Made by a program: the position numbers and the translations under genes. Under the pieces are notes generated by a model. The model was given only the letters and a program-made list of their open reading frames with translations, did not search any database and had not been told where the DNA came from. This document shows positions 5,849 to 40,788 of a DNA stretch of 64,000 nt, one piece after another. Positions within the stretch are counted from its first letter, which is position 1; each line of letters opens with the position of its first letter. The stretch covers positions 1-64,000 of the forward strand of contig CAIRBK010000072.1 of NCBI GenBank assembly GCA_903876795.1. The letters run 5' to 3'. The DNA is from an uncultured Verrucomicrobiota bacterium (GTDB lineage: Bacteria > Verrucomicrobiota > Verrucomicrobiia > Opitutales > Opitutaceae).

Positions 5849-6020
5849 GACGAGCCGTTGCGACCTAACTTATTCTCAAGCGAATCCCCGCAAGTGCCTG
5901 TAAACCTTGGTTTTCGCAGCGAAGCATTACGCTTATATATAACCCGAGTGCTCCAATCTGCTGAACAATGTCAGCACTAGCCTCGTTGTTTCAAATATCG
6001 AATCGTTCAATTTGGATCCT

Positions 6021-7595
6021 ATGAGTTACACCTTACCCATTTCTGAAACCCCTTATAATAAATTAGTTGTGGATGGCAAAGTTTATCACCCTCCCGCCGC
6101 CACGCGAGGCTCGGCGGATAGACCCATCCTCACGCCGGCCGTGCCCCGTTACCCGCGGATCAATGGCGCGAAGATTGCCGGAGTGCGTCCCGGCAGCCCG
6201 TTCCTCTACCGCGTCAGTGTGAGCGGCCAGCGTCCGCTGGCACTGAGCGTCGTCGGGTTGCCACCGGGCCTGAGCTTTGATGCCGACAACTCGGTGCTCT
6301 CGGGGACCTTGCTCTCGACCGGGCGGCATACCGTGAAAATCGAAGCCTCGAACGCCCACGGCCGCGCGACCCGCGAACTGCGCATCGTGGTCGGCCCCGA
6401 GTTCTCCCTCACGCCTCCAATGGGCTTCAACACCTACGGCGGCTGGGGCCCTTTCATCAGCGAAGCCCAGGTGCGCGCCGGAGCCGCCGCCTTGATCGCC
6501 AGCGGCCTCGCCGATCACGGCTACCATTACGTCAACATCGACGACGGCTGGCAGGGCGTGCGCGGCGGCCCGCTCAACGCCATCCAGCCCAACGAAAAAT
6601 TCGGCGACTTGAAGGTGTTTTGTGACGACATGCACCGGCTCGGCCTCAAGACCGGGACCTATTCCACGCCTTGGACCAGTTCTTACGAGGGCTTTTGCGG
6701 CGGCAGCAGCCGCACGTCCGACGGTGCTTGGGAGCGACCCAATCCTCCCCGCAGCGGGATTGGCCTCTTCGGGCAGTATCGCTTTGAAAAAGCCGATGCG
6801 CAGCAGTGGGCGGAATGGGGTTTTGATTACGCCAAATACGATTGGATCATCAACTCACCCGAACTCGCCCGCGCCATGTCCGAGGCGCTGCGTGACCAGT
6901 CGCGCGACATCGTTCTGGAGCTTTCCAACGACGCTCCGTTACGCGACGCCGATGCCTACACCGGTCTCGCCCAGATGTGCCGCACCACCGGCGACATCGT
7001 TGACGTGTGGGACCGCACCCAGCTCGAGCCCGAGAAACGCTCCTGGGCGCACGGCGTGCGCGACATCTGGAAACAGCACCGCGACTGGGCGCGTTTTAAC
7101 CGCCCCGGCCATTGGAACATGCCCTGTCCCCTGCGCGTCGGCGTGCTCGGCGGCTGGGACCTCAAGCCGCTCCAGCCCACCCGCCTGACCGTGGACGAAC
7201 AGTATGCCCACATCAGCCTCTGGGCCTTGTGGTCCGCCCCGCTCATCATCGGCTGCCCCGTCGAGCGTCTCGATGAGTTCACCCTCGCTCTACTCAACAA
7301 CGACGAAGTCATCGCCGTCGATCAGGACCCGCTCGGACAACAGGCCCGCGACTTCGCCGTCGAATGCGGCGAGGTGCTGGTCAAAGACCTCGAAGACGGC
7401 ACCAAAGCCGTCGGTCTTTTCAACCCCGGCAACGCCACCGCAGTGGTCACCGTCACCTGGGAGCAACTCGGCCTCGCCGGCCCGCAACACGTCCGCGACC
7501 TCTGGCGCCAGCAGGATGTCGGCGTCTCCGACGGCGGTTTCTCCGCCCAGGTAAACAGCCACGGCGTCGTGCTGGTCTCGTTTCGTTCCGCCTAA
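6021..7595 (+). CDS. GH27 family alpha-galactosidase with N-terminal putative Ig domain
   Basis: This 524-aa enzyme is predicted to hydrolyse terminal alpha-galactosides, as in galactomannan or raffinose-type sugars. Residues about 45-127 form a putative Ig-like (He_PIG) domain (LPPGLSFDADNSVLSGT). The GH27 barrel starts at LTPPMGFNTYGGW. The expected nucleophile is Asp274 in KYDW and the acid/base is Asp325 in RTTGDI. The usual WNDPDML motif is replaced by HWNMPCPL, a change at the active-site rim. No signal peptide is apparent, so it is probably cytoplasmic or exported by an unrecognised route. ATG at 6021 was chosen over an in-frame TTG three codons upstream; neither has a clear Shine-Dalgarno. 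It lies 28 bases before the DUF5107 gene and probably shares its transcript. Confidence 0.9.
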   Translation: MSYTLPISETPYNKLVVDGKVYHPPAATRGSADRPILTPAVPRYPRINGAKIAGVRPGSPFLYRVSVSGQRPLALSVVGLPPGLSFDADNSVLSGTLLSTGRHTVKIEASNAHGRATRELRIVVGPEFSLTPPMGFNTYGGWGPFISEAQVRAGAAALIASGLADHGYHYVNIDDGWQGVRGGPLNAIQPNEKFGDLKVFCDDMHRLGLKTGTYSTPWTSSYEGFCGGSSRTSDGAWERPNPPRSGIGLFGQYRFEKADAQQWAEWGFDYAKYDWIINSPELARAMSEALRDQSRDIVLELSNDAPLRDADAYTGLAQMCRTTGDIVDVWDRTQLEPEKRSWAHGVRDIWKQHRDWARFNRPGHWNMPCPLRVGVLGGWDLKPLQPTRLTVDEQYAHISLWALWSAPLIIGCPVERLDEFTLALLNNDEVIAVDQDPLGQQARDFAVECGEVLVKDLEDGTKAVGLFNPGNATAVVTVTWEQLGLAGPQHVRDLWRQQDVGVSDGGFSAQVNSHGVVLVSFRSA

Positions 7596-7623
7596 CTTTT
7601 TTCCCGTCTCTTTATCCACCCTG

Positions 7624-10600
7624 ATGAATAAAAACTCTGTCTCCATCCGCCGCGCACCCATCGTCATCCCGACCTACCAGCCGCAGTCGCCCGACAAAAA
7701 CCCGATGTTCCTCGAACGCCGCGTCTATCAAGGCAGCAGCGGTCGGGTTTACCCCTTGCCGTGCGTGGATCGCTTCGACGAAACCAAGACCGACCGCGCC
7801 TACGACTCCCTCCTGATCGAAAACGAATTCATTGAGGTGCTGATTCTGCCCGAGCTGGGCGGACGCATCCACGCGGCCAAGGACAAAACCAACGGCTACG
7901 ACTTCCTCTACCGCAACGAGGTCATCAAGCCCGCTCTGATCGGCCTCGCCGGCTCCTGGGCTTCCGGCGGCATCGAGTTCAACTGGCCGCAGCATCACCG
8001 CCCCTCGACCTTCATGCCGACGGATGTCGAGATTGAGGAACACGCCGACGGCTCCAAAACCATCTGGCTCAGCGAACACGATCCGCTCTGCCGCATGAAG
8101 GGTATGCACGGCATCTGCCTCCACCCCGGACGCTCCGTCATCGAACTCAAAGTCCGCGCCTACAACCGCACGCCCTTCGTCCAGACTTTCCTCTGGTGGG
8201 CCAACGTCGCCACCCGCGTCCACGAGGGCTACCAATCCTTCCTCCCGCCCGACGTCACCCACGTCGCCGACCACGCCAAGGGCTCCACCAGCACGTTCCC
8301 GCACTGCACGGGCACCTACTACGGCGTCAACTACGCCGAACGTGCGAAATCCGGCGTGCCGAAGCACGAACGCCCGCCCGCCTTCGTCCCGCCCCACTGC
8401 CGCGACGGCGAACTCCCGCCCGAGATCGCCAGACTCGCCGAGCAGGGCTACGCCCCCAACGACCTCACCTGGTATGCCAACATCCCGGTGCCCACCTCCT
8501 AAATGTGCATCGGCTCCAAGGAGGACTCCTTCGGCGGCTACGACCACTTCAAGCAGGCCGGCCTCATCCACGTTGCCAACCATCACATCTCCCCCGGCAA
8601 GAAACAATGGACCTGGGGCAACCACGCCTTCGGCTACGCGTGGGATCGCAACCTCACCGACCCCGAAACCGGCACCGGCGAACACCCGCCCTACATCGAG
8701 CTCATGGCCGGCGTTTACACCGACAACCAGCCCGACTTCTCCTTCCTCCAACCCGGCGAAACCAAGACGTGGAGCCAATTCTGGTATCCAATCCAAGGCA
8801 TCGGCCCGTCGCAAAAAGCCAGCGTGGATGCTGCCCTCAGCCTCACCGTGAACAACGGCGTCGCTCGCCTCGGTGCCCAAACAACTCGCATTGAGAACGC
8901 CACCGTCACGCTCACCCGTCACGGCCAGACCCTCTTTACCCAAACCGCCGAACTCGCCCCCGACCGTCCCCTCGTCACCACCGTCCAACTCTCGCCCGCG
9001 ACCGTGTTGACCGACCTGCGTCTGACCCTCGTGACCGCCGACGGACGCGAACTCCTCGTCTATCAACCCAAAACCCCCGCCACCAACGAACCCGCGCCCG
9101 CGACCGAGCCGCCGCCGCCCGCCGAAGTGAAGACCATTGAGGAACTCTACCTCAACGGCCTCCACCTCTCCCAGTATCGCCACCCGACCCGCATGGCCGA
9201 GCCCTACTTCGAGGAAGCCCTGCGCCGCGATCCCTCCGACGCCCGCACCAACAACGCCCTCGGCACCCTGCGTCTCATCAACGCCGATTTCGCCAAGGCC
9301 GAAACCCACCTCCGCACCGCCATCGCCCGGCTCACCCATCGCAACCCCAACCCCTACGATGGCGAAGCCTACTACCAACTCGGCCTCACCCTCCGCTACC
9401 GCGCCGACGCCGTCCAAGCCGATGGCGAAACCGCCCAGGCCGATGAACTCCTGGCCGACGCCTACGCCGCGCTCTACAAAGCCACTTGGAACCAAGCCTG
9501 GCAGGCCGCCGGTTACCACGCCCTCGCCGAGATCGACGCCCGCCGCCACGACTGGCTCGCCGCTCTCGACCACCTCGACCGCGCCCTGAGCGTCAACACC
9601 GACAACCTCAAAGCCCGCGACCTCCGCGCCCTCGTTCTGCGCAAACTGAACCGCGCCGACGAAGCTACCGCCGCCCTCCGCGCCACCCGCGCCCTAGACC
9701 CGCTCGACTGGTGGGCTCGCCTCCTGCTTGGCGAAGAAATCCGCTGCGATTCGCAGACCCGCCTCGACCTTGCCCACGACTTCGCCCGCGCCGGATTCTA
9801 CGCCGAAGCGCTCGCCGTCCTCGCGCCCGCCACCCCCGAACCCACCGCCGGCACCGGCCCCACGCTCGCCTACACCCGCGCTTGGCTGCACCGTTTGCTC
9901 GGCAACACCAAGGCCACCGCATCCGAACTCGAAACCGCTGCCAAAACCGACCGCGATTATTGTTTTCCCCATCGCGTCGAGGAGGCCGTCATCCTCGCCT
10001 GGGCCATCGCGCAAAACCCCGCCGACGCCCGCGCCCGCTACTACCTCGGCAACCTTTACTACGACCGCAAACGCCACCAAGAAGCCATCGCCCTCTGGGA
10101 ACAATCCGCCGCACTCGACCCCGACTTCTCCATCGTCTGGCGCAACCTCGGCATCGGTTACTTCAACATCCTCGAACAACGCGAAAAAGCGCAGCAGGCT
10201 TACGAGCGCGCCTACGAACTCGCCCCGACCGACGCCCGCCTGCTCTTCGAGCGCGACCTGCTCTGGAAACGTCTCGGCACCACCGCTGCCACGCGCTTGG
10301 CCGCCCTCGAAAAACACCTCCCGCAAGTCCGTCGCCGCGACGATCTCTCGGTCGAATACGCCGACCTCCTCAACCAAGTCGGCCGTCACACCGACGCGCT
10401 CGCCTATCTCGGTTCGCGCCGCTTCCAGCCTTGGGAAGGCGGCGAAGGGCTCGCCCGCACCCAACACGAACGCACCCACCTCGCCCTCGGCCGCCAGGCC
10501 CTCGCCGTCGGCGATGCCGCCCGCGCCCTCCAGCACTTCGAGACCGCGCTGATCGCTCCGCCCAACCTCGGCGAGACCAAGCACCTCCTCGCCAACCGCA

Positions 10601-11049
10601 GTGACATCGACTACTGGCTCGGCTGCGCCGCCGCCGCCCTCGGCGACACCGCCCGCGCCCAACAAGTCTGGACGGCCGCCGCCGGTTTCCGCGGCGATTT
10701 CCAGGAACGCGCCGTGCGCCAGTATTCGGAGATGACCTACTTCTCCGCGCGCTCCCTGCAAAAACTCGGACGCGCCGCCGAGGCGCAGGAACTTTTCACG
10801 GGCCTCAAGGCCTACGCGAAGCAACTCTTTCACGAAGAGGCCAAGGTTTACTACTTCGCTACCTCGCTGCCCGCCCGCCTGCTCTTCGACAATCTGCAAC
10901 GCCGCCAAGAGACGACCGCGTTACTGATCGAAGCCCAAGCCGAGCTGGGTCTGGGCCAACCAGCCGCCGCGAAGCAACTCCTCGAAACCGTCCTCCAACG
11001 CGACCCCGCCCGCGCCCTCGCCGCCGACCTTCTCTCTACCCTAAGCTAA
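7624..11049 (+). pseudogene. DUF5107/TPR protein interrupted by one in-frame stop codon
   Basis: Two halves lie in the same frame, 7624-8502 (292 aa) and 8503-11049 (848 aa), separated only by TAA at 8500-8502. The first half ends ...IPVPTS and the second continues directly as MCIGSKEDSFGGYDH, all inside one DUF5107 domain (galactose-mutarotase-like fold). The residue at the stop would fit Tyr (TAC/TAT to TAA). From about residue 500 of the joined 1141-residue protein, tetratricopeptide-type helical repeats follow to the end (for example EPYFEEALRRDPSDARTNNALGTLRL). Homologues known to me are single proteins of about 1100 aa with this layout, linked to sugar utilisation, though the exact activity is unknown to me. 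Everything else is intact, so the lesion is young, a sequencing error, or read through. The downstream beta-helix gene starts 24 bases later. Confidence 0.85.
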
Positions 11050-11072: not shown

Positions 11073-13205
11073 ATGAAAAATAGCCTACTCCCCGTTCTCG
11101 CTTTTATTGCGTCCCTTTCTTCCCTCTCGGCGCAATCCCCAGAACCGGTTGATCGCGCCAGCCTCTTAACCAAACCAACCGCCGATGCTTCCATCGTCAC
11201 GGGTGCTTCCGGTGTAAACGAGAAAGCAATCACACAGGTAATTCGAGTAACTCCCGGGCCCCAAGCCCTTGCTAAAGCTCTTGAAGAAGCTAAAGAGAAA
11301 CTTCGCAACGGCACCCCGGTCAAGGTGCTGATCGCCCCCGGCATCTATCGAGAGGGAGAGTTGGTCATCGATGGAACCAAGATTGGCGGTGCTGCCGCCT
11401 CCACACCCCTGATTATCGCCGCTGAAAGAACCGGCACCGTGACCATTTCCGGGGCGGATGAGTTCCCCGCAAAGAATTGGAAGGCAGTGAAGGACGCTTC
11501 GGGCAAGGTCTTCGCCTACGAACACCCTTGGCCGCACGACTTCGGTTTCTGGCCTACCGGCAACAAGAATTATAATCCAAAGTCGCCCTACGAACACCGC
11601 CGCGAAGTGGCTAAAATCAACGGCGTCCCCCTTCGCCAAGTTGTGTTGGAGCAATACTCTTACACCGCTCCGCCGACGGATCCCAAAAATCACGAGCTTT
11701 CCCTCCCTTTTCCTGAAGGCACCGTGCAGGATTCTTTCTTGGCCGGGCTAAACTGGCCGACGTTTAGAACGCCCAACATCCTCTCAAAATTCGATGATTA
11801 CGGGGTTTACGTTTACAAGCAAATGGTGGAGCCCGCCACGCTTGCACCAGGCACCTTTGGCGTCGCCGAGCGCCCGGAAAACGGTGACCGCATCTTCATC
11901 GCGCCCCCGGATAACGTAAAGTGGGCAGAAATCACCGTGGAGGTCAGCGTCCGCCCTTACCTGCTCTGGATCGTGAACAAATCCAATGTGGTGGTCCGGG
12001 GATTGAATTTCGAGATGGCCGCCGCCATGGCCGGGCCACGCTCCGCTGTTCGCTTGGGCACTTGGTTTCCGCCAACCCAAGGGGCTGGGATTCAGGATCA
12101 AAACTTGCTTATGGAAGATTGCCACTTCGATTTTGGCAACGGCACGCACCTCGAAGTCAGCTACAGCAAAGATGTCACTTTGAGGCGCATTAAGGCCACC
12201 CGCGCCGCCGCATCCGGCATCACCACCACTCACGTTCAAAACTTCCTATGGGACACTGTGGAAACCTCCTACAACCACTGGCGCTATGTGGGCGGATGGG
12301 GTGGCGGTGGCAGTAAAAACCACAATATCCAAGACGGCGTCTTTCGCAATGTCACCGCTGTGGGTAACGATGCCATCGCCCTTTGGTTTGATATCGATTG
12401 CGCCAACATCACCGTCGATGGTTTGGTCGCTTACGGCAACCGTGTGGGTCTGGATTTCGAGATCGGTAAAGGGCTGCTGGTGCGCAATTCGGTCATCGCG
12501 GCCAATGCGAAAGCAGCCGTGGCCTTGAAGGCGGCCAATCAAATGAGCATCGAAAACTCAATCATCGCTGGCCCGACGGGTGTGGCTAATTTCATCTTCC
12601 AAGCCGCATCACGCGGAGCATCGGGCGAAAGATCCATCCAAACTCTGCTAGGGTTGCCACGGAACGACCCCTATGTGCTTGATCGCCTTACCATCAAAAA
12701 CAGCGTCATCCTCGGTCTTCCCCAAGAGGCTTGCCCACCGGGAGCCGAGCGCTATGACCACGACCGCGGGGTGCGGGCATCGGGTTTTGTGGCTCCCCTC
12801 TTTGTTGAGCACCACGGCTGGCCGCGCGAAATTTACCAGAAGTTTATCCGCAATGGTTACGCTGGAAGTGGAAACCTCTGGTTCAGTCCGGAAGCAAAGC
12901 CCTTCGGTATCGGCAAGATTATGGATAGCCCAGAGTGGCGTTCAAAACCCAATGTGAACGAGTGGATAGGCTTTGATTCGTGGGCGTCCCTGGTTGCCGA
13001 GCAGAACTCCCAATGGATCGACCCCGGCTTTGTGAACGCAGCGGCCTTGGACTTTACCGCCAAGACTAACAGCCCTGCATCAAAGATGAAGCTTCCGGTG
13101 TTTAGAATTTCTGCCGAGCGTCGCGCTGAATGGGAATCCTTCAATAAAGCCGATTTTTACAAATCCACCGAACGCAGTGAAGTCATCGACGTCATCGTGA
13201 AATGA
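11073..13205 (+). CDS. Secreted right-handed parallel beta-helix protein (polysaccharide lyase/hydrolase-like)
   Basis: This 710-aa protein begins with a clear signal peptide (MKNSLLPVLAFIASLSSLSA, cleavage before QSPEP). The mature part opens with VKVLIAPGIYREGELVIDG, the entry motif of pectate-lyase-like beta-helices. It continues with coil repeats between about residues 285 and 500 (NVVVRGLNFEMA, LLMEDCHFDFG, VTLRRIKATR, ITVDGLVAYGN, LLVRNSVIAAN, MSIENSIIAG). Such folds carry pectate, alginate and related lyases as well as GH28-type hydrolases. No diagnostic catalytic triad could be assigned, so the substrate is unknown. It is a paralogue of the next gene (PGIYREGE and LWFDxxC segments in both) and may be co-transcribed with it. 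Confidence 0.8.
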   Translation: MKNSLLPVLAFIASLSSLSAQSPEPVDRASLLTKPTADASIVTGASGVNEKAITQVIRVTPGPQALAKALEEAKEKLRNGTPVKVLIAPGIYREGELVIDGTKIGGAAASTPLIIAAERTGTVTISGADEFPAKNWKAVKDASGKVFAYEHPWPHDFGFWPTGNKNYNPKSPYEHRREVAKINGVPLRQVVLEQYSYTAPPTDPKNHELSLPFPEGTVQDSFLAGLNWPTFRTPNILSKFDDYGVYVYKQMVEPATLAPGTFGVAERPENGDRIFIAPPDNVKWAEITVEVSVRPYLLWIVNKSNVVVRGLNFEMAAAMAGPRSAVRLGTWFPPTQGAGIQDQNLLMEDCHFDFGNGTHLEVSYSKDVTLRRIKATRAAASGITTTHVQNFLWDTVETSYNHWRYVGGWGGGGSKNHNIQDGVFRNVTAVGNDAIALWFDIDCANITVDGLVAYGNRVGLDFEIGKGLLVRNSVIAANAKAAVALKAANQMSIENSIIAGPTGVANFIFQAASRGASGERSIQTLLGLPRNDPYVLDRLTIKNSVILGLPQEACPPGAERYDHDRGVRASGFVAPLFVEHHGWPREIYQKFIRNGYAGSGNLWFSPEAKPFGIGKIMDSPEWRSKPNVNEWIGFDSWASLVAEQNSQWIDPGFVNAAALDFTAKTNSPASKMKLPVFRISAERRAEWESFNKADFYKSTERSEVIDVIVK

Positions 13206-13294
13206 AGCCGACCATCACACCTGCTCTTCGACAACCTCCACCGCTGCACAACTCACCCCAATAAGTCTGTCAGACAAATAACCCCCTTTTCGTT

Positions 13295-15696
13295 ATGCGC
13301 ACCCTCTTCCTGTTACTTCTTTTCGTAGCACATTCTGCTCTTCAGGCTCGGGAACTTGATCGTTTCGCGGGTGAGCTAACGGTGATCCCGCAGCGTATCG
13401 CTGAAGACAACACTTGGGTCGAGGTAAAGATCACGACGGCTCCCAGCTCGCTCGCGGGAGCCAGTGGCCAAGTGGTGCGCATTTCCACCAGCTACGGTGC
13501 CAATGAGCAACCTGATCCAGCTATCCAGATTACTCTTTCCCGACTGGAGTCAGGCAAACCAGCAACCGTTCAAGTGCGCCCCGCGAAGAATGGGGGCTTG
13601 GAGTTTGCCGCCTCTCCGGGGCCGCTCGATTTCAAGGGGTTCGCGCTGCCGCTCAAGCCGCAAGTGCAGCCCCCCTTACGAGAACCCGATCTCAGCAAGA
13701 TCGACGGAGCTAACATCGATGAATCCTTGGTCACCGTGACCCTTGCCGTTGACCCCGGTTCTTTTGGGTCGGACGACAACCCGGGCAGTGCCGAGAAGCC
13801 GCTCAAGACCTTTGCCGCCGCCCTGGCGAAAGCCAAGACTCTGCTCGGCGAAGGAACCGGCGTGCGTATCAGCCTGGCCCCCGGCATTTACCGCGAAGGC
13901 GAGTTCGATCTTCGTCAGGGTTTTGGCGTGCCTGACGGCAAAACGGCTCCCCTGCTGATCGAAGGACGCACCGGGTCGAAAGGTGAGCAAGTCGTCTTTT
14001 CCGGAGCCGATCCCATCACCACATGGCAAGAGGCCGGCAAAGGAGTCTTCACCGCCCCTTGGACAGCCAAGCTTGGTTACTGGGCTGGGATGATGGGCAA
14101 TTATAACGTGCAACAACCTATCCGGCAACGGCGAGAAGTCGCGGTGGCTGGGGGCAAGCTTCTCGTGCCCGTGCTGCTCGACCGTGTGAAATACGCGCTC
14201 AGGGATGGCCTGAAAGACGCCGCCCCCGGCCAGCACGGAGCTACTGGCGGCAAAGTAGCTGCGGACAGTGTCGGCTTCTGGACCGAACTCGGGTCTCGCG
14301 ATCCACAGGAGGTTCTGGAGCCCGGCACGTTTGGCGTTTCGGAAAGTCGTGGATTCATTGCCATTCGTTTGGCCGAGGGTCGGACACCAAGGACAGATTC
14401 GGTGGAAGTCAGCACCCGCCGCTATTGGCTGGCACTCGGTCGAACAGATCAAGCAGCCATTCGCGGTCTTACGCTCCAGCATTACGCCACCGGCATTGCC
14501 GCTGAGGATGGCTGGAAATTGCAGGGTGCCCTCTGCATCGCGATGCATGGCGGCTTCGAACAAGGAAAGCACCGCACTCGCAATATCGTGGTGGAGGATG
14601 TCACGATCCGCGAAAACTCAGGAATTGGCGCCCAGTTTGGAGACGTTGGCGGCCTTACTCTGCGTCGGCTGAAGCTGCTTGATAATGGCGGCGGGGGCGC
14701 GGGCGGCGGAGCATGGCGTGACGCCGTGATCGAAGACTTGGAGATCGCCGGCAACAACTGGCGCGGCGATACGCAGACCGGCTGGTTCGCCGCCGGCTTC
14801 AAGATGCACGATTGCGGAGATACCATCATCCGCCGCTTCACCGCCTACGGGAATCTGCCACCGGCTTATGGTTCGATGTTAACTGCGAGCGCGTGAGCAT
14901 CGAAGACCTGACCTCGGTTCATAACCGCCGCGGACTTTTTGTGGAAATCAGCAAAGGCCCGTTCCTCATCAACCGAGCCTTACTCGCCGACAACCAAGTC
15001 TCCGCACTGCGCATTCTGGACGTCGAACACGTCACCGTGCGTAACTCTCTGCTCGTGGTCGGACCGCAGTCCGACGCCAAACCCTCGGCGGCCAAGGCAA
15101 TTTATGACGAAGCAACGGGCAGGTCCAAGCGCGATGATCGCATGCTCATCGACATACCCTATTACCTCCGATCCTCCATGAACAACGATGCCAACTGGAA
15201 CCGGGTGGAGAACGCCTTGGGTGCGAGCAAGAGACACGAGGAATTTGCCTTGCCCGGGCCGTGGTCGATCACCGGTTCAGTCGTGGCCTCTTACACCCCC
15301 GGGCAGTTCCTAACTTGGGTCAGTTTATGGCTGCCTCAACCCCAGCGGCTCCCGGCAGTTTATGAGCGGGCTTTATCAATCTCGGACACGACTTTTTACG
15401 CCGCTGAAGACGATGCGTTTCTATGGTTTGACTTTAATCGAGCACCTGCCGAGCAGGCTCATGTCATGAACCTGGAACGTTTCCAAAGCTACTTGCCCAA
15501 AGTAGCAGGCAATTGGGGCGACCCCGGTTTTGTCGATCCGACCCAGGGCGATTACCGTCTAAGTCCAACTTCGCCTCTCATCGGCAAAAATAAAGAGCTG
15601 CCTGCCCGCGCCCTTCCTGCCGCATGGAGGGACAAGCGGCTGGCAACCCGCGCTTTTGCGGATAAACTGCAGCGACTCAGTCCTGTGGAGCCGTAA
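13295..15696 (+). pseudogene. Secreted right-handed beta-helix protein, broken by a one-base deletion
   Basis: The N-terminal frame (13295-14896) has a signal peptide (MRTLFLLLLFVAHSALQA) and beta-helix entry motif RISLAPGIYREGEFDL. It runs into nonsense after TAYGN near 14854. The C-terminal half continues in another frame to 15696 with SATGLWFDVNCERVSIEDL. The upstream paralogue reads VGNDAIALWFDIDC at the matching point, so restoring one base at about 14854 (AATCT to AATTCT) rejoins the frames exactly. The repaired product is about 800 aa. Function is presumed polysaccharide binding or cleavage. The rest is intact, so the lesion is recent or an assembly error. Confidence 0.85.
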
Positions 15697-15734
15697 CCGC
15701 AATTCGCCCTCGGAAAGCCAATTAAAGCGCAACA

Positions 15735-16679
15735 ATGAATTCGCAGCCAACCGCCGCCCTTCGTGAAACTTGTGATGGATTCGAGGTGATTCGCCTGCGT
15801 TCCATGGAGGCCGAGGTGGCCATCGTGCCTGCGCTCGGCGCCAAGCTCGTGTCCCTCCGCACCCTGCCGGACGGGCGCGAGTGGCTCTGGCACCCCGAGG
15901 GAGCACTGTGCCTGTTCGCGAATTCGGTGGGTGACAGCTTCACCGACGGCACCCTTGCCGGAGCCGACGAGTGCATACCCACCGTGGGGGCTTGCCGTGC
16001 CGGCGGGCGCGATCTGCCCGACCATGGCGAAGCCTGGAGTCAGGCGTGGACCTTGGACGAAACCGCGTTGAGCAAGGGGCTCGTTCGTACCACGCTGCGT
16101 CTGCCCATTTCGCCCTTTACCATCACCCGCACCGTGCGAATGGAGGGAGAGATCGTGGTGCTGGACTACGAACTAACCAATCACGCGGCTAAGCCCGAGC
16201 CGTATCTCTGGGCTTTGCACCCGCTGCTGACCTTTCACGAAGGCGACCGCTTAATCGTGCCCGAGGAGGTGCACGACATTCGTATCGAGGGTGCGACACG
16301 GCCGGGCGCAAAGCCGGGAGATCACTGGTCTTGGCCGGGGCCGGCGCCTGAAATCAATCTTAACGAACTACGACTCGAAAATGATCGAGCCTCCGTCAAA
16401 TTCTTCGCTGGCCCGTTGCGCGCAGGCCATTCCTCAATCGTGAACGAGCGCACGGGAGATAGCCTTGAGTTCAACTGGGGAACCGAGGCCAATCCCTACC
16501 TCGGCGTCTGGCTCACGCGCGGCGGCTGGCGCGGGGTGCATCATCCGGCGATTGAGCCGACGAATGCTCCCTGTGACACGCTGGCTGAGGCCCAATCTCA
16601 GTTTCCATCCTCATCACGCATCCTGGCTTCTGGGGCGACGAAAGAGTGGAGCGTTTGGATCAAACCCTCCGCACGATAG
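15735..16679 (+). CDS. Aldose 1-epimerase-like (galactose mutarotase fold) protein
   Basis: This 314-aa cytoplasmic protein has the galactose-mutarotase-like beta-sandwich pattern: MEAEVAIVPALGAKLVSLR near the N-terminus, ADECIPTV, a central LWALHPLLTF carrying the His expected at the active site, and LGVWLTRGGWRGVHHPAIEPTN near the C-terminus. The family interconverts sugar anomers or recognises sugar phosphates. Sequence alone does not fix the substrate. It follows the beta-helix genes by 38 bases, so it may handle the sugars those release. It is convergent with the minus-strand gene at 16918. Confidence 0.8.
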   Translation: MNSQPTAALRETCDGFEVIRLRSMEAEVAIVPALGAKLVSLRTLPDGREWLWHPEGALCLFANSVGDSFTDGTLAGADECIPTVGACRAGGRDLPDHGEAWSQAWTLDETALSKGLVRTTLRLPISPFTITRTVRMEGEIVVLDYELTNHAAKPEPYLWALHPLLTFHEGDRLIVPEEVHDIRIEGATRPGAKPGDHWSWPGPAPEINLNELRLENDRASVKFFAGPLRAGHSSIVNERTGDSLEFNWGTEANPYLGVWLTRGGWRGVHHPAIEPTNAPCDTLAEAQSQFPSSSRILASGATKEWSVWIKPSAR

Positions 16680-31513: not shown

Positions 31514-31747
31514 TACACAACATCTCCCCCCTCTCCTCCCATACCTATCATCATCTAACGCATCACTCATTCCCCGCGTCCCTACGGGCGAGAACTCAGA
31601 TCTCTCCATCCAAGCCGCGCCCCCCTCGTCCTTTTGCTCCGACTTCACCTGCACCTCCAACACCCCCGTAAGCAGCGACACTGTAATCGTTACCAATACC
31701 CGTACTCCGTATACATTAATGTTTTCTGAGCTAAGGAATTGAGCCCA

Positions 31748-34700
31748 ATGAAATTCGCATCCAAGTTCGCCCGCGCGCTGGGCCCCATCATTCTCTGCAT
31801 CGCGTCGAGCCTCCCCGTGACCGCTTATGCCGCGAACATCTGGGACGGCGGTGGCGCGGATACGAACCTCAACACGGCGTTAAACTGGGATGATGATGCC
31901 GTTCCGAACCTGACCGGCGGTACCACGCTGACTTTTGCCACCGCCGGATCCACCGCCACGGTCAACATCGACACGTCGCTTGCGGGGATAAATTTCAACC
32001 GCGACGCCGACTTCACCCTGGCCAACGGCACCCCCACTACGCTGACCCTTGGCAGCGGCGGCATCACGCTCAATCAGCCCGGACCCACCCCGCCGGAAAC
32101 TGCGGCCACCTCGCGTCGCCTGACGATCGCAGAGCCGCTCACCCTCAGCGCCGCGCAGACCTGGACCGCCAACCCGTTTACGTCCGAGGACGTCACCACC
32201 GTTCCCAACCTTACCATCTCGGGAGCGATCACCGGCACCAACCCCGTTACCCTGACCCGCTCCGGGACGACCGGGACGTTTGGCGTCAGTGTCTCCGGCA
32301 ACAACTCCGCCTTCTCCGGCGCTTGGATCATCGGCCAGGGCATCAATCTCCGCAATGAGACCGCCAATCCCACCTCCGCCCTGGGCACCGGCACGATCAT
32401 TTTCCAAGCCGGCGTCGGCGCGAACTCGGGAAGCATTCTCGCCTTTAACCAGGGCTTCACTGGTGCGATCTCCAACGCGATCACGATCAATAACGCGGCG
32501 ACGACTGCCACGATCCAGAATTTCGGCGGCTTTTCAGGCAACAACGCAGTCACTTTTTCGGGTAACTTCACCACCGGTGCGGCGCAAGCGACCAGCGGCG
32601 GGCTTAACCTCAATCCGAAGGCGGGTTCCGGCGTGGCGTCCAACACCGAGTCGGTCTATCGCCTCACCGGCAATTGGACGACCTACGGCGACTTCTCCGG
32701 CAGTGCCAACCTCGTCTCCATCACCGGACGCGGCACGGTGGAGATCGGCAGCGCCAACGCCATCGCCAGTACCGCCAATCCCTCGCGTGTCACCTATCGT
32801 CTCACCGCCAACGACAGTGCTTCCCTCCAGTCCGACCCCACCGTCAAGTTTTCCGCCAAACTCATCCTCGGCGGTGCTTACACGCTGGCCAACCCGGTCC
32901 TTTTCACCGGATCGACCTCGGCACCCAACTACAACTCCCTCGGCGCGCGCAACGCCTCCGGCACCACCGCCACCTTCTCCGGCCTTCTCACCCAAAACAC
33001 CGACAATAGCGCCGGCTTGAACCTTTTTGCCCAGTCCTCCGGCGCCGTGACGGACTTCACCGGCAACATAGTCTCCCAGGCTGTCACCGACACGAACCGC
33101 GTGCGGGTGAACGCGCCCTACAGCTACCAAGGTGGCCTCGGTCTGACCAACCAAACCCCGGCGGGCACGGTGAAATTCACCGGCGCCAAGACTTATTTCG
33201 GTCCCACGGCGGTCAACGGGGGCACGCTGAATCTCGCCGGCTCCATTCTCAACTCCTCCGGTCTCACCATCGCGGGCGGAAACCTCCTGCTGCCGGACGG
33301 CGGCACGAATAAGATCAAAGACACCGCCCCGGTCACGCTGGGCGGCGACACCCCCTCGTCGCTTACCCTTTCCGGCACGGTTTCGGAGACCGCAGGCGTG
33401 TTGACCCTGGCCGGTTCCGCCGCGTCCACCCTCGATTACGGCTCCGGCGCAGGCACGTTGCGCTTCGCCGACAGCAGCGGCGTCACCTGGCCGGGAACCG
33501 CGCAGATAATCAATTGGTCCGGCGGGACCACCGACCGGCTTTACGTTGGCACGAATGCCTCCGGCCTCACTTCGGACCAGCGCACCAGGCTCACCTTCCT
33601 CAATCCCCGCCAGCTCACCGGCAGTTTCAACTCCATCCAAAAATCCGACGGTGAGGTCGTGCCCGAAGGCTGGACCGGCTCGGCGAGCCCGGTGCTGACT
33701 TCCACCTCCACGACCCCGGCCTACGGCGATTCGGTGACCTTCACCGCCTTCATCCACACCGACGGCGTCATCCAAACCGGCGCGACGGGCAACATCGTAT
33801 TCAAGGTTGATGGCACCACCGCGCAGACCGTCGCCGTCTCCAGCGGCCAGGCGACCTTCACCACCACCACCCTGGCCTTCGGCTTGCGCTCCATCACCGC
33901 CACTTATAGCGTCGGCGGCACCGCCACCCGCACGGTCACGGTGGGCACCGCTCCCGTTACCATCACCGCATTCAACCTCACCAAGACCCAAGGCCTGGCC
34001 AAGGCTCTCACCGGCATGGAATTCACCGCCACCGGCCTGAAAAACGGCGACACCATCGGCTCGGTCACCCTCACGGCCAGCGGCGGACTCGCCACCGCCG
34101 ACCCGGTGGGCACTTACTCGCTCACGCCCAGCGCGGCCACCGGCGGCAGCTTTAATCCCGCCAACTACACCCTCACCTACTTCCCTGGCACCCTCGCCGT
34201 GCTTGGCACGATCGGCACAGGCGCGACCGACATCCAGGCGATTTACGATACCTGGCCCACCGCCAACAAGCAGACGCTCTACGTCAAGACCAACGGCAAC
34301 GACACGACCGGCACGGGCACCGACGTCAACCCCTACGCCTCCATCAAAAAGGCGCTCAGCGTGGCCACCGGAAAAAAGAAGATCGGCGTCGCGGTAAAAA
34401 TCATCATTTTCCCCGGCACTTACCGCGAAGGCGCACCCGGGGATAGCAACGGGTTCAGCTTCAACATTCAGCAGACCGATGTAAACGCCGCCCCGCTAAT
34501 CCTCGAGGGCCAAGGCTGGAACGCCGCCACTCCATCGAACACCGGCGACGTCATTGTGTCCTGCTCCGACGACTGGTCCGGCGTCAAAGGCCCCGCCTCC
34601 ATCCTCGGCTGGACGAAAAACACCGTGAACAACACCTGGACCCGCAGCGGCACAACGGTCAGCGCCGCCTGGACGCAGAACGCCGACGGCACCTGGTCGA

Positions 34701-37700
34701 AACCCTGGCCCTACAATTGGGGCGTGCCGACGAAGAGCGTCAGCTTCGGCGTGGCCGATGCCTTCCTGCGCCGCGAGCTCGTGGTGGTAAACGGCCAGCC
34801 CTACTACCAAATCAATCCGGCCAAAAATCTCGACGGCACCGATTACGTGAACGTCAACAGCGTGGACGGCGTCTTCGGCGGCGGAGCCGAGGGCGACAAC
34901 ATAACGCCCACCAACGTGAACGGCGGCCGCCTCACCGCCGAAGAAGGTGCCTTCTGGGTCCACGACGCCACCCTCGATCTCGATAACATCGTCACCACCC
35001 TGGGCCGCATCACCATCAAGCCCCCGGCCAACGCGGTGGGCTTCGATCCCAACGCCACCGCCAATCTTATCGAGGTCAGCACCCGGCGAAATGGGTTTCA
35101 GTTCTGGGTCGGAAATGGCTCCACCGCCACCCTCTCCTCCACTCCGACCAACGTCGTCATCCGCAATCTCACCTTCCAGCATTCCGGCCGCTATGGCTCA
35201 CTCATCCAAGGCCAGAACAATCTGCTCATCGAGGACTGCCGCTTCATCAAAGGCAAACGCACCGGCCTTGCGGTGCTCCTGAGCCAGGGTGCCACCCTGC
35301 GGCGCTTGGAGTGCGCATCCAATGGTGAAGATGGCGCGATGTTTTTCGAGGGGATCAACGGCCTGCTCGAATACTGTAAATTCAACAACAACTCCCGGCA
35401 GGGCGAAATCCTCGGCTTCACCGGCTGGTCGGTCAGCGGCATCAAGCTTCGCTCCACCAAGGGCGCGAATGCCAATGTCACCGTTTACCGCTGCGAGGCC
35501 CGTAACAACCGCTCCACCGGCTTCTGGTGGGATACCGGATGCATAGAGAACCTCATGCTCGAATGCGTCTCGGTCAATAACAGCGGCAACGGCACCTTCA
35601 TCGAGGACAACAACGACACTTCCAACAACTTCAGCCAGGAGAGCAGCACCGGGGTCGATACTGAGGGCATCCCCAATCTCGGCACCCGCCCCACCGTTAC
35701 CGTCCTCCGCAGCATTCTGGCCAACAACAAACCGCCCGCCGAAACCCTGGCCTACCGCACCAATAAAAACGGCGGCGTCTTCTTCTCCGAAAACGAAAAC
35801 GCCGTAATTGATGGCAACCTAATCTATGGCAACCATATTCAGATTTCCACCTACGACAATGATCGCGGCGAGCAGCGCAATTTTACCTTCCGCAACAACC
35901 TCATCGCCGCCCAAAGCACCGACGAGCGGCTCTACGCGGTGAAGAGCAACGGCGACTCCGCCGAAACCATCACGCTCAAGCAATTGGTCGTGGACGTTGC
36001 CGACGCCGATAGCGACGGCAACACCACCGAGCCCCTGCTCGATTCCAACGGTAAGAAACAATACGTGAACAAAACCAGCAGCCCGCAAACGATCAAGGGT
36101 GGCTGGTATGCCATGTATGACGGTCTAAGCACCACGACCAACGACAACGTTTATTTCCACCCCTCGACCACCGCATTCCCCGCCCGTTCCCAGCGCTGGG
36201 GCACCGAGAGTTGGACGAATCCCGCGAAGACCGGCTTCCCCAACCAGTCCACCCTCACCCTTGCCCAGTGGAAACAAACCCACAAGGACAACACCAACAA
36301 CTCCTTCACCGACCGCCGCGTCGATTCCCGCTCCACCCTGGTCAACACCGCCTACGACGACACCAAACCGCTCGTGGCCATCACCCCGCTAGTGGACAGC
36401 CTCATCGAAGGCGATCCCGCCACGGCGGCCTTCAACGTCACCCGCGTCTCCGCCCAGACCAACGGCTATGACGCCGCCCTCACCGTCGCCTACACCGTGC
36501 GCACCCAGCCCGGCGACGCCGCCAACGGCACCGACCTCGAAACGCTCTCTGGCACCGTCATCATCCCGGCCGGCCAGCGCTCCGCCACGATCAACGTAAC
36601 CACGAAGACCGACGCCCTGCTCGAATTCACCGAGACCATCGCCCTAGTGCTCGACACCACTGCGGGCACCTATGTGGCCGCCAACCCCACCGGCACCGTC
36701 CTGCTTTTCGACGTGCCGCCGCCGACCGACGGCCCCGCCGCCGCGCCCAGCTTCTCGCCCGACGCCGCCGCCATTTACGCCGGCTCCGTGACCATCACGC
36801 TCGCCAGCGCCACCGCCGGAGCGACCATCCATTATACTACGGACGGCACCACGCCCACCCGCTCGGTTGGCACAGTTTACACCGGTGCATTCACCATCTC
36901 CACCCTGAAGCAGACCACGATCAAAGCCGTCGCCTACAGTGATAACTACGATTTAAGCACGGTGGCCAGCGCGACCTACCAAGTGCGCGCGCAAGTGGCG
37001 ATCAACACCTCTCGCGCCTCCGCGTTCGTCGCGGCTAACGGCACCGCCACCCGCACCGTGACCCTTACCAACAACACCGCCAGCACTCAGGTGCTCAACC
37101 TCGCGCTCAATCTGCCCGGCACGTCCTATCTCAGCGATACGTATCGCGTCGTCACCACCGAGGAGGGCAGCAGCGTGGCGGAATGGAAGTCCATCGCCGC
37201 CACCGGCACCTCGCTCTGGAACTACACCGGGTCCGGCTTTGACGATGTCACGTCCTCGGCCCTGAGCCTCGGGTTCTCGATCCCCTATTTCGGAAACAGT
37301 TATTCCACCATCCGTGTCTGCACCAACGGTTGGGCCTCCTTTACCGCAACCGCCACAGCTTGGAATAACCAACCCTTAAGCACCCAGGCCTCTACTATCC
37401 CGAACGGGTTGTTCCCGATGTGGGACAACCTTGTGATTTTCGATAACCTTTCCTATGTCTATTACCAGCAACGCACCGACGCGAACGGACCGGAGTTCGT
37501 CATTCAGTGGGATAATCTCAAGCAATACACCGGAGACAATCGCTTCACCTTTCAGGTGATCCTCCGTCCCTCGGGCGAGATCATCTATCTCTACAAAGCC
37601 ACGCCGGATAACTATGCGTCCAGCACCACCGGTTTGCTCGGAGGAGTGAATTCCGATGTCATTCAACTCAACCACAACACCGCGTCAGATCTGACCAAGG

Positions 37701-40700
37701 GCGGCTCGGCCATCCAGTTCTACCGCCCCTGGGCGACGCTCTCGACCAATAGCCTCACGCTCGCCCCCGGCGAAAGCCGCACGGTTGACGTGAGCCTCAA
37801 TGCCACCTACCTCCCTTCCAGCCAGGAGGCGGTCACCACGCTAATCGTCACCCCCGTAAGCTCCGGACTCGTTGTCAGCAATCCGATCCCCGTATCACTC
37901 AAGGCCGGCACCAGCACCGCCGTGGAGCAATGGCGTTACCGCTACTTTGGCGTCATCGACAACAGCGGAAACGCCGCCGATTCCGCCAATCCCGACGGCG
38001 ACGCCTTCACCAATGCCACCGAGTATGCCAACGGCACCGATCCAACCATTCCGAATCCCACGCCCTACATTTTCACCGGCACGGGTCCGACCACTTACTC
38101 GTGGACAACCGCGGGCAACTGGAACGTCGGCACCGTGCCGAACGAGAGCAACGCCGACGTGCGCGTCACCACGAACATCACCGCCGACACCACGCTCAAT
38201 CTCAATCAGTCCATCACCCTCGGCACGTTGAAAATCGGCGACAGTGCTGCGACAAATTCCAACGGCAACGATTTTAACACCTTCACGCTCGCGCCCGGCA
38301 CCGGCGGTTCGCTGACCTTCGACACTCCCTCCGGCAACGCCCGCCTGGAGCGCCCCGATGCAGGCACGACCAACGCGACCTACAACGGCAAGATCGACAC
38401 GGTTTCCGCCAATCTCACCCTCAACCGCATACTCGAAGTCAGCATCGGCAACAGCTCCAGCAACGGCGGCATCACCTTGAGCGGCGTGATCTCCGGCCTC
38501 GGCGGAATCATCCGCCAATTCCCCGGCACCGGCACGCCCACCACCTTCTCGGTCAACAGCACGCTGCGCCTCACCAACCCCGCCAACAGCTTCACCGGCG
38601 CGGTGCGCATCAGTGGCGGACGCCTTGAAATCCGCGGCGATGTGCCCGCCGGCGCGAACAGCGCCCTGGGCAACTCTAACAGCGCCATCGTCATCGGCGA
38701 CAGCACCACCACCGGCACGGCCAACGCCAGCTCGGCGGAACTCGCCCTGCTCACCACCGACGCCACGTCGAACCACGTCTTCGGGCGGAATCTCGACTTC
38801 TCCCAAGGCGGCGGAAGCACGGCCTGGCGCACCGCCTTTAACTTCAACAGCAACGCCACGGGTGTCGTTACGTCCACCAACACTCTCGCGCTCAGCGCCG
38901 ACATCAAACTCGGGACGCGCTCCACCCAAATCACCGCCCAGCGCCGCGGCATGACCATCAACCTCACCGGCGACATCACCGGCTCCGGCGGACAGATCTT
39001 CTGGAACGCCATTGGCGCGGGCTTTTCCACCACCGGCGGAGCCCAGGGCGGCGTCATCCGCCTGAGCGATCGCGCCCGCACCTACACCAACGACCAAACC
39101 CTCACCAACGGCACCCTCGTCATCCTCGGCTCCGTCCCCGCCTCGGGCAGCAGCCCCATCGGCACCAAGACCATCACCCTAGCCGATGGCAACGGCGGTA
39201 ACATCGTCACCGCCAACGGCCAACATGGCATCCGCTCCCTCTTCCTCGACAACGACGGCACCACCTTCGCCCGCCCCCTCAGCCTCGGCGGCGGCACCAA
39301 CACCACCACCTACAACGGCACCAGTGCCAGTTTCACCGTTTATAACGGCTATCGTCTCGGCGGACTCAATACCACCGGCAAAGTCACCTTCTCCGCCGCC
39401 ATCTCGAGCGCGGACCCCGCCATCGGCAATGCCCCTTACGTCAACCAGACCATCACCACCGGCCAGAACCTCGCCCTGCTCGCCGCCGCAGGCGGCACCG
39501 TCGAGTTCAGCGGCGTGATCAACGACACCCCTAACGACACCCCTCCGACCAATCACACCACACGCATCACCATTAACCAGTTCCGCAACCACCCCCAGCT
39601 CGACACCAACACCAGCGGCACTACCGGCACCCCCGACACCGGCGGCGCGGCGGGTTCCAACGCCAACGACGCCATCGGCACGCCCACCGGCGGCACCGTC
39701 ATCCTCTCGGCCGCCAACGAATACGCCGGCGGCACCGAAGTTCTCGGCGGCACCCTCCTCGCTAACAACACCAGCGGCTCCGCCACCGGCACCGGCACAG
39801 TCACCGTGCAAAGCGGTGCCCGCCTCGGCGGCACCGGCACCATAACCGGCAACGTCACCATCAACACCGGCGGCGGCCTGGCCTTCACGCTGAGCACCCT
39901 GCCCGGCGCGCACGATAAACTCGACCTCGGCGGCACTCTCACCTTCGCCGGCTCGAATACGCTCGCCATTACCGCCAGCAATTCGTCTCCCACCACCGGC
40001 ACTTACACCTTGCTCACCGCCACCGGCGGCACGGGCTCGGGCACTTTACCCACGCTCACGTTGCCCTCCGGCTGGGCCGCGACGCTCCAGCGCAGTGGAA
40101 ACAACCTGAACCTCGTGGTCACCGCCATCGCGCCGCCAGCGGCCCCGACCGGATTGGCCGCGACCGTGATCTCCACCAGCCAGATCAACCTTTCCTGGAC
40201 CGCCAGCGCCACCGCCACCACTTACTCGGTCAAGCGTGCCACCGTCAGCGGCGGCCCCTACAACTCCGTCGTTTCGGGCCTTTCCACCACCAATTACAAC
40301 GACGCCACCGGACTCAGCGCCGGGACGACCCACTATTACGTGGTTTCCGCCACGAACGATGTCGGGGAGAGCTCCAACAGCAGTCAGACCAGCGCGACGA
40401 CCTGGACGGCGATCCAAGCCTGGCGGGTAAGCAAAGGCCTGGCCCTCAATGCCCTCGATACGGCGGATCCTGACAACGATGGACTCAATAACCTCTTGGA
40501 GTATGCCCTCGACCGCAATCCTCTCGCGGCCGACTCCACCCCGCCGACCACAGGCTCAATCGAATCCGCCACCGGCAGGCTCCAACTTACCTTCCTGCGC
40601 GCCCGCTCTGCCACCGAGTTGACCTACACCGTCCAGGCCAGCGGCGACCTCGTCACCTGGAGTGACCTCGTCACCAACCCCGGCACCGTCGGAAACAGTG

Positions 40701-40771
40701 TCACCGTCACCGACACGCCACCCGCCGCCGCCATCCGCCGCTTCCTCCGCCTCAAGGTCGCTACCCCCTAG
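31748..40771 (+). CDS. Giant secreted multidomain beta-helix / autotransporter-repeat protein
   Basis: This 3007-aa protein begins MKFASKFARALGPIILCIAS with cleavage after AYA (residue 28). ATG at 31748 follows AAGGAA. In order: beta-strand repeats of the autotransporter-associated type (about 30-640); a bacterial Ig-like domain (647-732, PAYGDSVTFTAF); an MBG-like domain (733-817); a right-handed beta-helix (822-1537, LYVKTNGNDTTGTGTD, PGTYREGAPGD, VVIRNLTFQHSG); a Calx-beta-like domain (1541-1656); a chitobiase-C-terminal-like domain (1662-1747, ATIHYTTDGTTPT); a beta domain (1748-2060); an internal NPDGDAFTNATEYANGTDP motif (about 2080); a second beta-strand array (2105-2790); a fibronectin-III domain; and the C-terminal domain with DPDNDGLNNLLEYAL ending FLRLKVATP. 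It likely binds or cleaves polysaccharide at the cell surface. An IS element lies directly at its stop codon. Confidence 0.85.
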   Translation: MKFASKFARALGPIILCIASSLPVTAYAANIWDGGGADTNLNTALNWDDDAVPNLTGGTTLTFATAGSTATVNIDTSLAGINFNRDADFTLANGTPTTLTLGSGGITLNQPGPTPPETAATSRRLTIAEPLTLSAAQTWTANPFTSEDVTTVPNLTISGAITGTNPVTLTRSGTTGTFGVSVSGNNSAFSGAWIIGQGINLRNETANPTSALGTGTIIFQAGVGANSGSILAFNQGFTGAISNAITINNAATTATIQNFGGFSGNNAVTFSGNFTTGAAQATSGGLNLNPKAGSGVASNTESVYRLTGNWTTYGDFSGSANLVSITGRGTVEIGSANAIASTANPSRVTYRLTANDSASLQSDPTVKFSAKLILGGAYTLANPVLFTGSTSAPNYNSLGARNASGTTATFSGLLTQNTDNSAGLNLFAQSSGAVTDFTGNIVSQAVTDTNRVRVNAPYSYQGGLGLTNQTPAGTVKFTGAKTYFGPTAVNGGTLNLAGSILNSSGLTIAGGNLLLPDGGTNKIKDTAPVTLGGDTPSSLTLSGTVSETAGVLTLAGSAASTLDYGSGAGTLRFADSSGVTWPGTAQIINWSGGTTDRLYVGTNASGLTSDQRTRLTFLNPRQLTGSFNSIQKSDGEVVPEGWTGSASPVLTSTSTTPAYGDSVTFTAFIHTDGVIQTGATGNIVFKVDGTTAQTVAVSSGQATFTTTTLAFGLRSITATYSVGGTATRTVTVGTAPVTITAFNLTKTQGLAKALTGMEFTATGLKNGDTIGSVTLTASGGLATADPVGTYSLTPSAATGGSFNPANYTLTYFPGTLAVLGTIGTGATDIQAIYDTWPTANKQTLYVKTNGNDTTGTGTDVNPYASIKKALSVATGKKKIGVAVKIIIFPGTYREGAPGDSNGFSFNIQQTDVNAAPLILEGQGWNAATPSNTGDVIVSCSDDWSGVKGPASILGWTKNTVNNTWTRSGTTVSAAWTQNADGTWSKPWPYNWGVPTKSVSFGVADAFLRRELVVVNGQPYYQINPAKNLDGTDYVNVNSVDGVFGGGAEGDNITPTNVNGGRLTAEEGAFWVHDATLDLDNIVTTLGRITIKPPANAVGFDPNATANLIEVSTRRNGFQFWVGNGSTATLSSTPTNVVIRNLTFQHSGRYGSLIQGQNNLLIEDCRFIKGKRTGLAVLLSQGATLRRLECASNGEDGAMFFEGINGLLEYCKFNNNSRQGEILGFTGWSVSGIKLRSTKGANANVTVYRCEARNNRSTGFWWDTGCIENLMLECVSVNNSGNGTFIEDNNDTSNNFSQESSTGVDTEGIPNLGTRPTVTVLRSILANNKPPAETLAYRTNKNGGVFFSENENAVIDGNLIYGNHIQISTYDNDRGEQRNFTFRNNLIAAQSTDERLYAVKSNGDSAETITLKQLVVDVADADSDGNTTEPLLDSNGKKQYVNKTSSPQTIKGGWYAMYDGLSTTTNDNVYFHPSTTAFPARSQRWGTESWTNPAKTGFPNQSTLTLAQWKQTHKDNTNNSFTDRRVDSRSTLVNTAYDDTKPLVAITPLVDSLIEGDPATAAFNVTRVSAQTNGYDAALTVAYTVRTQPGDAANGTDLETLSGTVIIPAGQRSATINVTTKTDALLEFTETIALVLDTTAGTYVAANPTGTVLLFDVPPPTDGPAAAPSFSPDAAAIYAGSVTITLASATAGATIHYTTDGTTPTRSVGTVYTGAFTISTLKQTTIKAVAYSDNYDLSTVASATYQVRAQVAINTSRASAFVAANGTATRTVTLTNNTASTQVLNLALNLPGTSYLSDTYRVVTTEEGSSVAEWKSIAATGTSLWNYTGSGFDDVTSSALSLGFSIPYFGNSYSTIRVCTNGWASFTATATAWNNQPLSTQASTIPNGLFPMWDNLVIFDNLSYVYYQQRTDANGPEFVIQWDNLKQYTGDNRFTFQVILRPSGEIIYLYKATPDNYASSTTGLLGGVNSDVIQLNHNTASDLTKGGSAIQFYRPWATLSTNSLTLAPGESRTVDVSLNATYLPSSQEAVTTLIVTPVSSGLVVSNPIPVSLKAGTSTAVEQWRYRYFGVIDNSGNAADSANPDGDAFTNATEYANGTDPTIPNPTPYIFTGTGPTTYSWTTAGNWNVGTVPNESNADVRVTTNITADTTLNLNQSITLGTLKIGDSAATNSNGNDFNTFTLAPGTGGSLTFDTPSGNARLERPDAGTTNATYNGKIDTVSANLTLNRILEVSIGNSSSNGGITLSGVISGLGGIIRQFPGTGTPTTFSVNSTLRLTNPANSFTGAVRISGGRLEIRGDVPAGANSALGNSNSAIVIGDSTTTGTANASSAELALLTTDATSNHVFGRNLDFSQGGGSTAWRTAFNFNSNATGVVTSTNTLALSADIKLGTRSTQITAQRRGMTINLTGDITGSGGQIFWNAIGAGFSTTGGAQGGVIRLSDRARTYTNDQTLTNGTLVILGSVPASGSSPIGTKTITLADGNGGNIVTANGQHGIRSLFLDNDGTTFARPLSLGGGTNTTTYNGTSASFTVYNGYRLGGLNTTGKVTFSAAISSADPAIGNAPYVNQTITTGQNLALLAAAGGTVEFSGVINDTPNDTPPTNHTTRITINQFRNHPQLDTNTSGTTGTPDTGGAAGSNANDAIGTPTGGTVILSAANEYAGGTEVLGGTLLANNTSGSATGTGTVTVQSGARLGGTGTITGNVTINTGGGLAFTLSTLPGAHDKLDLGGTLTFAGSNTLAITASNSSPTTGTYTLLTATGGTGSGTLPTLTLPSGWAATLQRSGNNLNLVVTAIAPPAAPTGLAATVISTSQINLSWTASATATTYSVKRATVSGGPYNSVVSGLSTTNYNDATGLSAGTTHYYVVSATNDVGESSNSSQTSATTWTAIQAWRVSKGLALNALDTADPDNDGLNNLLEYALDRNPLAADSTPPTTGSIESATGRLQLTFLRARSATELTYTVQASGDLVTWSDLVTNPGTVGNSVTVTDTPPAAAIRRFLRLKVATP

Positions 40772-40788
40772 CAGCCCGTCGGACTTAG
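40772..40788. repeat. Left terminal inverted repeat of the IS element
   Basis: CAGCCCGTCGGACTTAG matches the right end with one difference (position 6). It abuts CTAG. Confidence 0.85.

Follow-up and report, generated by a model that had tools for sequence, protein, structure and literature searches.

Proteins of the YphG family combine a galactose-mutarotase-like DUF5107 domain with a TPR superhelix, and are found in carbohydrate-use loci. In Escherichia coli, yphG lies beside the divergent gene yphH, whose product is a ROK regulator, and has genes for sugar ABC transporters and for an aldose 1-epimerase downstream of it. A shorter protein of solved structure, BDI_1685 of Parabacteroides distasonis (5cd6), is a TPR-domain protein with a chain of 575 residues, and its entry title carries no function. 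Galactose mutarotases and aldose 1-epimerases (3mwx, 4bze and the L. lactis GalM entries) have the fold of the first domain in common with these proteins. In the excerpts that our literature searches returned, DUF5107 appeared only in a table row, as a domain of unknown function; yphG figured in none of the titles returned, and among the abstracts only in that of an erratum. A comparison of another sort is with ordinary bacterial nonsense pseudogenes: like them, the gene described below is accessory and, apart from a single premature stop, conserved; unlike them, it has decayed little so far, and could be an assembly artefact, instead.

The gene lies in a 64,000-nucleotide stretch of DNA—'the window'—from an uncultured verrucomicrobial bacterium of the Opitutaceae, and positions below are those of the window. 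The features that concern us here are these:

6012-7595, + strand: alpha-galactosidase-like ORF (Melibiase_2 and Melibiase_C), presumably of family GH27; its end lies 28 bp upstream of the split gene
7624-8502, + strand: first part of the split DUF5107/TPR (YphG-family) gene, 292 codons and the premature TAA; aligned to 19 uninterrupted relatives
8500-8502, + strand: the in-frame TAA, codon 293, a Tyr position in homologues (from the translation and the homologue alignments)
8503-11049, + strand: second part, 848 codons, in which DUF5107 is completed and followed by a beta-rich linker and TPR repeats; the opening ATG encodes a conserved internal Met
15735-16679, + strand: aldose-1-epimerase-like ORF (Pfam score 25.1, just below the cut-off of 27)

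The split gene resembles E. coli YphG in the order of its parts, is 35% identical to it over 1128 columns, and belongs to a family whose motif PVPTSYM, present in YphG too, places a Tyr where the window gene has its stop. It differs in that YphG is uninterrupted, has other neighbors, and is accompanied by a ROK regulator where relatives of the window gene in the same genus have an AraC regulator.

That the two parts belong together is clear. Translation of 7624-11049 on the + strand gives 292 sense codons, the TAA at 8500-8502, 848 further sense codons and a final TAA, 1141 codons with the internal stop included, and no other lesion. In a Pfam search, the first part matches PF17128 (DUF5107) over residues 42-233 (profile 6-199, E 7.4e-31, 107.7 bits) and the second part over residues 3-97 (profile 213-310, E 3.2e-11, 43.2 bits), both above the curated cut-off of 24.4 bits, so that each part belongs to the DUF5107/YphG family by profile score; TPR models match farther along the second part, after DUF5107. 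GC3 is similar in the two parts (0.86 and 0.82, respectively), as is the codon-bias score (0.45 and 0.49). Each part is thus genuine coding sequence and, because they share a frame, a domain and a composition, the observation of a split gene is correct and no chance pairing of two frames is involved. The initial annotation had described two halves in one frame, an otherwise intact 1141-codon gene with a single clean lesion, a stop within a conserved domain, and a following codon that fits PTS-Y-M; translation bears out the first two points, the TAA divides PF17128 between profile positions 199 and 213, and the ATG follows the TAA directly in what is, with 'PTS-Y-M', the family consensus. The parts are collinear, and the TAA makes of them two ORFs where the family has DUF5107 and then TPR in one uninterrupted chain of ~1100 residues. 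We have accordingly filed the gene as a broken descendant of the DUF5107/YphG family, rather than as a working member.

In NCBIfam the first part had no match and the second only sub-cut-off ones, and a plasmid collection gave 14 matching records, the best 10 of which were all below 60% identity. Searched across the whole genome with stops read through, PF17128 found two matches, both in one 1164-residue frame, the second of them spanning the TAA. Whole-genome searches found no second DUF5107 copy, and redundancy through such a copy was thus rejected. Opposite the split gene, on the - strand, there is an antisense open frame of 653 codons at 7612-9573, which GC-rich codon usage probably suffices to explain; the reverse frame has no stops across the first part and three across the second.

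Homologues show what is usual at codon 293. Among 56 genomes searched—55 relatives and the genome itself—19 relatives had long matches in uninterrupted frames, and 18 of these have Tyr at the stop site (16 TAC, 2 TAT), the most distant one having Ile. In L002-L013 the single uninterrupted ORFs are 62-71% identical to the first part and 55-60% to the second. A second set, which overlaps the first (L002 and L032, for example), comprised the best 80 of 593 loci from named records, found and ranked by the second part only; 79 of these reach the site, one (L088) ending before it, and all 79 have Tyr. From either Tyr codon, TAA differs by its third base alone. The disruptive change thus falls at a conserved site, and cuts the domain within a predicted strand (see below). 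The Met next to the Tyr is equally conserved, which indicates that the ATG seeming to open the second ORF is the native internal Met. The possibility raised by the initial annotation that homologues also end here as separate proteins did not materialize: 68 of the 80 loci are clean and full-length, 10 lie at a contig edge, three carry a lesion elsewhere (one of these is also an edge locus), and none is split or ends at the position of the stop. Nor does any homologue in either set have a stop codon at the site.

The chain obtained by reading through the TAA was modeled from 30 aligned sequences, with mean pLDDT 87.8 and pTM 0.85. The best structural match to the whole model is 5cd6 (Z 36.3; 553 residues aligned, rmsd 4.0, 22% identity), the alignment covering the mutarotase-like domain and some of the TPR repeats. 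Foldseek likewise ranks 5cd6 first, and a PDB sequence search recovers it with each part separately; its TPR region is shorter, the chain having 575 residues where the window gene has 1141 codons. Ranks 2-11 are solved mutarotase-like chains, which align with residues 5 to ~394 at Z 21-24, and the first ~390 residues of the predicted model adopt a galactose-mutarotase-like fold. Identity to galactose mutarotases is ~8-15%, and there was no mutarotase among the matches of the PDB sequence searches at the limits used. Codon 293 falls inside a predicted strand, residues 291-296, of the mutarotase-like domain, and truncation there would remove the later strands of that domain, the second beta-rich stretch and the entire helical TPR part. 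A fragment of 292 residues without the last mutarotase-like strands and the whole of the TPR part is, judging from the model, probably non-functional.

Could the two parts nevertheless be made as two polypeptides that reassemble into a working two-chain protein? The TAA and the ATG at 8503 abut, and translational coupling is reported to require overlaps or very short distances (PMC10666635), so the geometry suits termination followed by reinitiation; the frame beyond the stop is, in addition, still open and conserved. The missing Shine-Dalgarno-like motif at 8503 is no objection, since only one of the 20 ORF starts examined in the window (mechanically assigned starts, all) has such a motif and 19 have none. 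Still, the ATG is a conserved internal Met, the region around it is predicted to be more structured than 17 of 19 others (–13.7 versus a median of –5.4 kcal/mol, the others being mechanical ORF starts), the interruption would cut a compact domain within a predicted beta-strand, and none of the homologues examined is split at the site. We regard reassembly as quite improbable. The corresponding evolutionary account, in which one substitution created a two-cistron gene whose 292- and 848-residue chains rejoin across the broken beta-strand, a gene fission under way, is a shade more doubtful still. The scarcity of Shine-Dalgarno-like motifs in the window (1 of 20, again with mechanical starts) suggests, as an aside, that initiation is largely SD-independent.

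Readthrough or recoding of the TAA, yielding some full-length protein, fares worst of all and strikes us as very unlikely. The two halves are both open and conserved, which is compatible with readthrough, and in-frame stops lacking other signs of decay are described as poor markers of pseudogenes (PMC7918605). Against this, a search with RF00005 found 42 tRNA genes in the genome, all with anticodons other than TTA, TAA terminates five of the 19 other ORFs tabulated in the window, no internal stop interrupts any of 89 ABC and MFS matches (75 ABC, 14 MFS), and none of the homologues examined has a stop at this codon. Nothing in these counts hints at TAA being recoded across the genome, and a suppressor tRNA or a change of genetic code was rejected as a candidate. 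In passing, two same-strand MFS matches elsewhere in the genome (G000:C71:14579-15763) overlap slightly in frames of different length, and represent either two genes or a frameshift.

A more serious rival is an error in the consensus at codon 293, or a consensus drawn from a minority strain, with most cells carrying an intact gene. We consider this possible, if rather less probable than genuine loss. The draft genome consists of 103 contigs, with completeness 98% and contamination 2.16%; assembly errors are reported to account for many of the internal-stop pseudogenes in bacterial assemblies, more so at low coverage (PMC11017572); and the remainder of the gene shows little decay. Single lesions occur, moreover, in three of the 80 homologous loci, all from metagenome assemblies (records titled MAG): a frameshift at query residues 258-278 in L055 (L055:2879-2953), which may reflect a C lost from a run of C, a frameshift at 215-240 in L064 (L064:2887-2902), and a stop near query residue 205 in L041, one of the edge loci. 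A class-wide scan of 384 genomes, with an E limit of 1e-100 and at most two scored candidates from each, gave matches in 58 genomes, and internal stops in three of the 57 besides our own (G216, G288 and G413), these being partial matches. Such stops and lesions suggest that single lesions in this gene are part of the ordinary background of collections of this kind. A lesion hot spot at 205-293, embracing L055, L064, L041 and the window gene, was considered and rejected: the second part alone served to find and rank the loci, and keeping the best 80 of 593 selects against lesions in that part.

Several observations weigh on the other side. The genome has no internal stops in 75 ABC, 14 MFS and 21 AraC matches, a sample too small, however, to speak to a low error rate. 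The contig is 134 kb long and ends 8.5 kb from the site, where the longest run is AAA. And the absence of the regulator, to which we now turn, is independent of the base at codon 293.

Of 12 genomes of the same genus, five have the full-length gene and seven have none; the DUF5107/TPR gene is accessory in the genus. The seven gene-less genomes are 87-99% complete (G006 being the one at 87%), and some of the absences may be draft gaps. In all five genomes that keep the gene, a divergent ORF of 302-322 residues lies beside it, and all five ORFs are AraC-family regulators:

L196:6534-7499: divergent AraC regulator beside the DUF5107/TPR gene
L197:3394-4299: the same
L198:13665-14588: the same
L199:8686-9600: the same
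L200:9397-10323: the same

In the window, the alpha-galactosidase-like ORF occupies the upstream place that the divergent regulator has in these relatives. A profile was built from the five regulators, their own matches to it being by construction; it finds no orthologue of them in our genome at E 1e-40, and at the same limit it has no match in six of the seven gene-less relatives and an 87-residue match in the seventh, G002. Regulators held out of the profile score 242-354 bits, whereas the best of the window ORFs and of four loci elsewhere in the genome scores at most 97 bits. The genome does contain 21 weaker AraC matches to one of the five regulators (best E 1.7e-14). One AraC ORF in the window, 50462-51352, was considered as the missing regulator; it is 27-34% identical to the five over partial lengths, and they are 33-52% identical to one another, so that pairwise identity alone is insufficient, and it is the held-out profile scores that separate it from them and led us to reject it.

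The match in G002 proved to be a scar (L209:5605-5887). There, 223 bp from the C-terminal end of the regulator gene (86% identical in DNA to the copy in G012) directly adjoin a 60-bp piece of the DUF5107 gene (80%), which at the protein level is recognizable as 18 residues (E 5.6e-4). The original divergent arrangement has been kept, and the 1.4 kb that separates the two pieces in G012 is absent. This relic, with its 1.4 kb missing, shows that one relative has had the module deleted. Transposase-like ORFs, with HTH and DDE_3 matches, adjoin the scar.

In the wider family, which extends over several phyla, a divergent AraC gene was found within 600 bp in at least 26 of the 65 loci that had enough upstream sequence, of 80 altogether; the count comes from a pairwise search and is a lower bound. 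An AraC neighbor is thus commonly absent in the wider family, and its absence from our genome is, on its own, no proof of decay.

Whether the gene has begun to decay can also be asked of its sequence. The window gene departs from consensus seven times at the columns that 95% of the other rows conserve, against a median of two for those rows (range 0-18), and three of the 72 other rows reach seven; at 97% columns it departs five times, as many as 5 of the 72 do, and at 100% columns once, as do 18 of the 72. Eight of the 80 loci were left out of this count. When branch length is allowed for, with six of the 80 left out and 74 other rows, the 95% columns give six departures where 2.7 are expected (P 0.056) and the 90% columns 11 where 7.7 are expected (P 0.16), and by rate of departure the window gene ranks 11th and 15th, respectively, of 73. 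The best DNA pieces from the same genus are 67-80% identical to the split gene. At best these figures hint at relaxed constraint, and with so little decay the lesion is recent or not real.

All told, genuine recent loss of a YphG-family gene by pseudogenization seems to us the probable explanation. A conserved Tyr, no second copy, no regulator found, and patchy presence in the genus are together best accommodated by it. Counting against loss are the lack of any other lesion, the intact codon bias, and an excess of changes at conserved sites that loses significance once branch length is considered and fades when the threshold is loosened. In outline, a conserved Tyr codon would have mutated to TAA, and translation would then yield a 292-residue fragment that lacks the last mutarotase-like strands and the TPR part; the regulator would have been lost together with the appearance of the stop, or earlier. 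We infer that the stop exists in the living genome, and not in the assembly alone. Of the three options in the initial annotation—recent loss, sequencing error or readthrough—the first has gained from the conservation of the Tyr, the single copy, the missing regulator and the patchiness of the gene, and the last has receded, there being no suppressor tRNA, no recoding and no homologous stop.

Unless we misjudge the evidence, then, this is most likely an ordinary nonsense pseudogene event, and its own value is small: it is an example of the loss of a sugar-use module, AraC regulator and DUF5107 gene together, that 5 of 12 relatives retain. The pairing of a DUF5107/TPR gene with a divergent regulator, seen in several phyla and, as yphH-yphG, in E. 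coli, offers a lead to the function of the family.

The surroundings of the gene deserve brief comment. The epimerase-like ORF at 15735-16679 lies 4.7 kb downstream of the split gene, and a relative of it directly follows the DUF5107 gene in two of the five same-genus genomes that keep that gene. Neither the window ORF nor the relative in L197 could be accepted as a counterpart of E. coli YphB, the matches being weak only (E 0.002 for the window ORF), and alignment of the window ORF with the DUF5107 alignment by hhalign gave no significant match. The ORFs immediately downstream of the split gene, at 11073-16679 (beta-helix, a 533-aa ORF, and the epimerase-like ORF), have codon-bias scores of 0.03-0.08, far below its own, and a GC3 of 0.63-0.71, also below; this block was perhaps recently acquired. 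Farther along the window, at 31739-40771, there is a frame of 3010 codons with matches to beta-helix, Fn3-associated and passenger-associated repeats, and a transposase ORF, 40785-42353, adjoins it.
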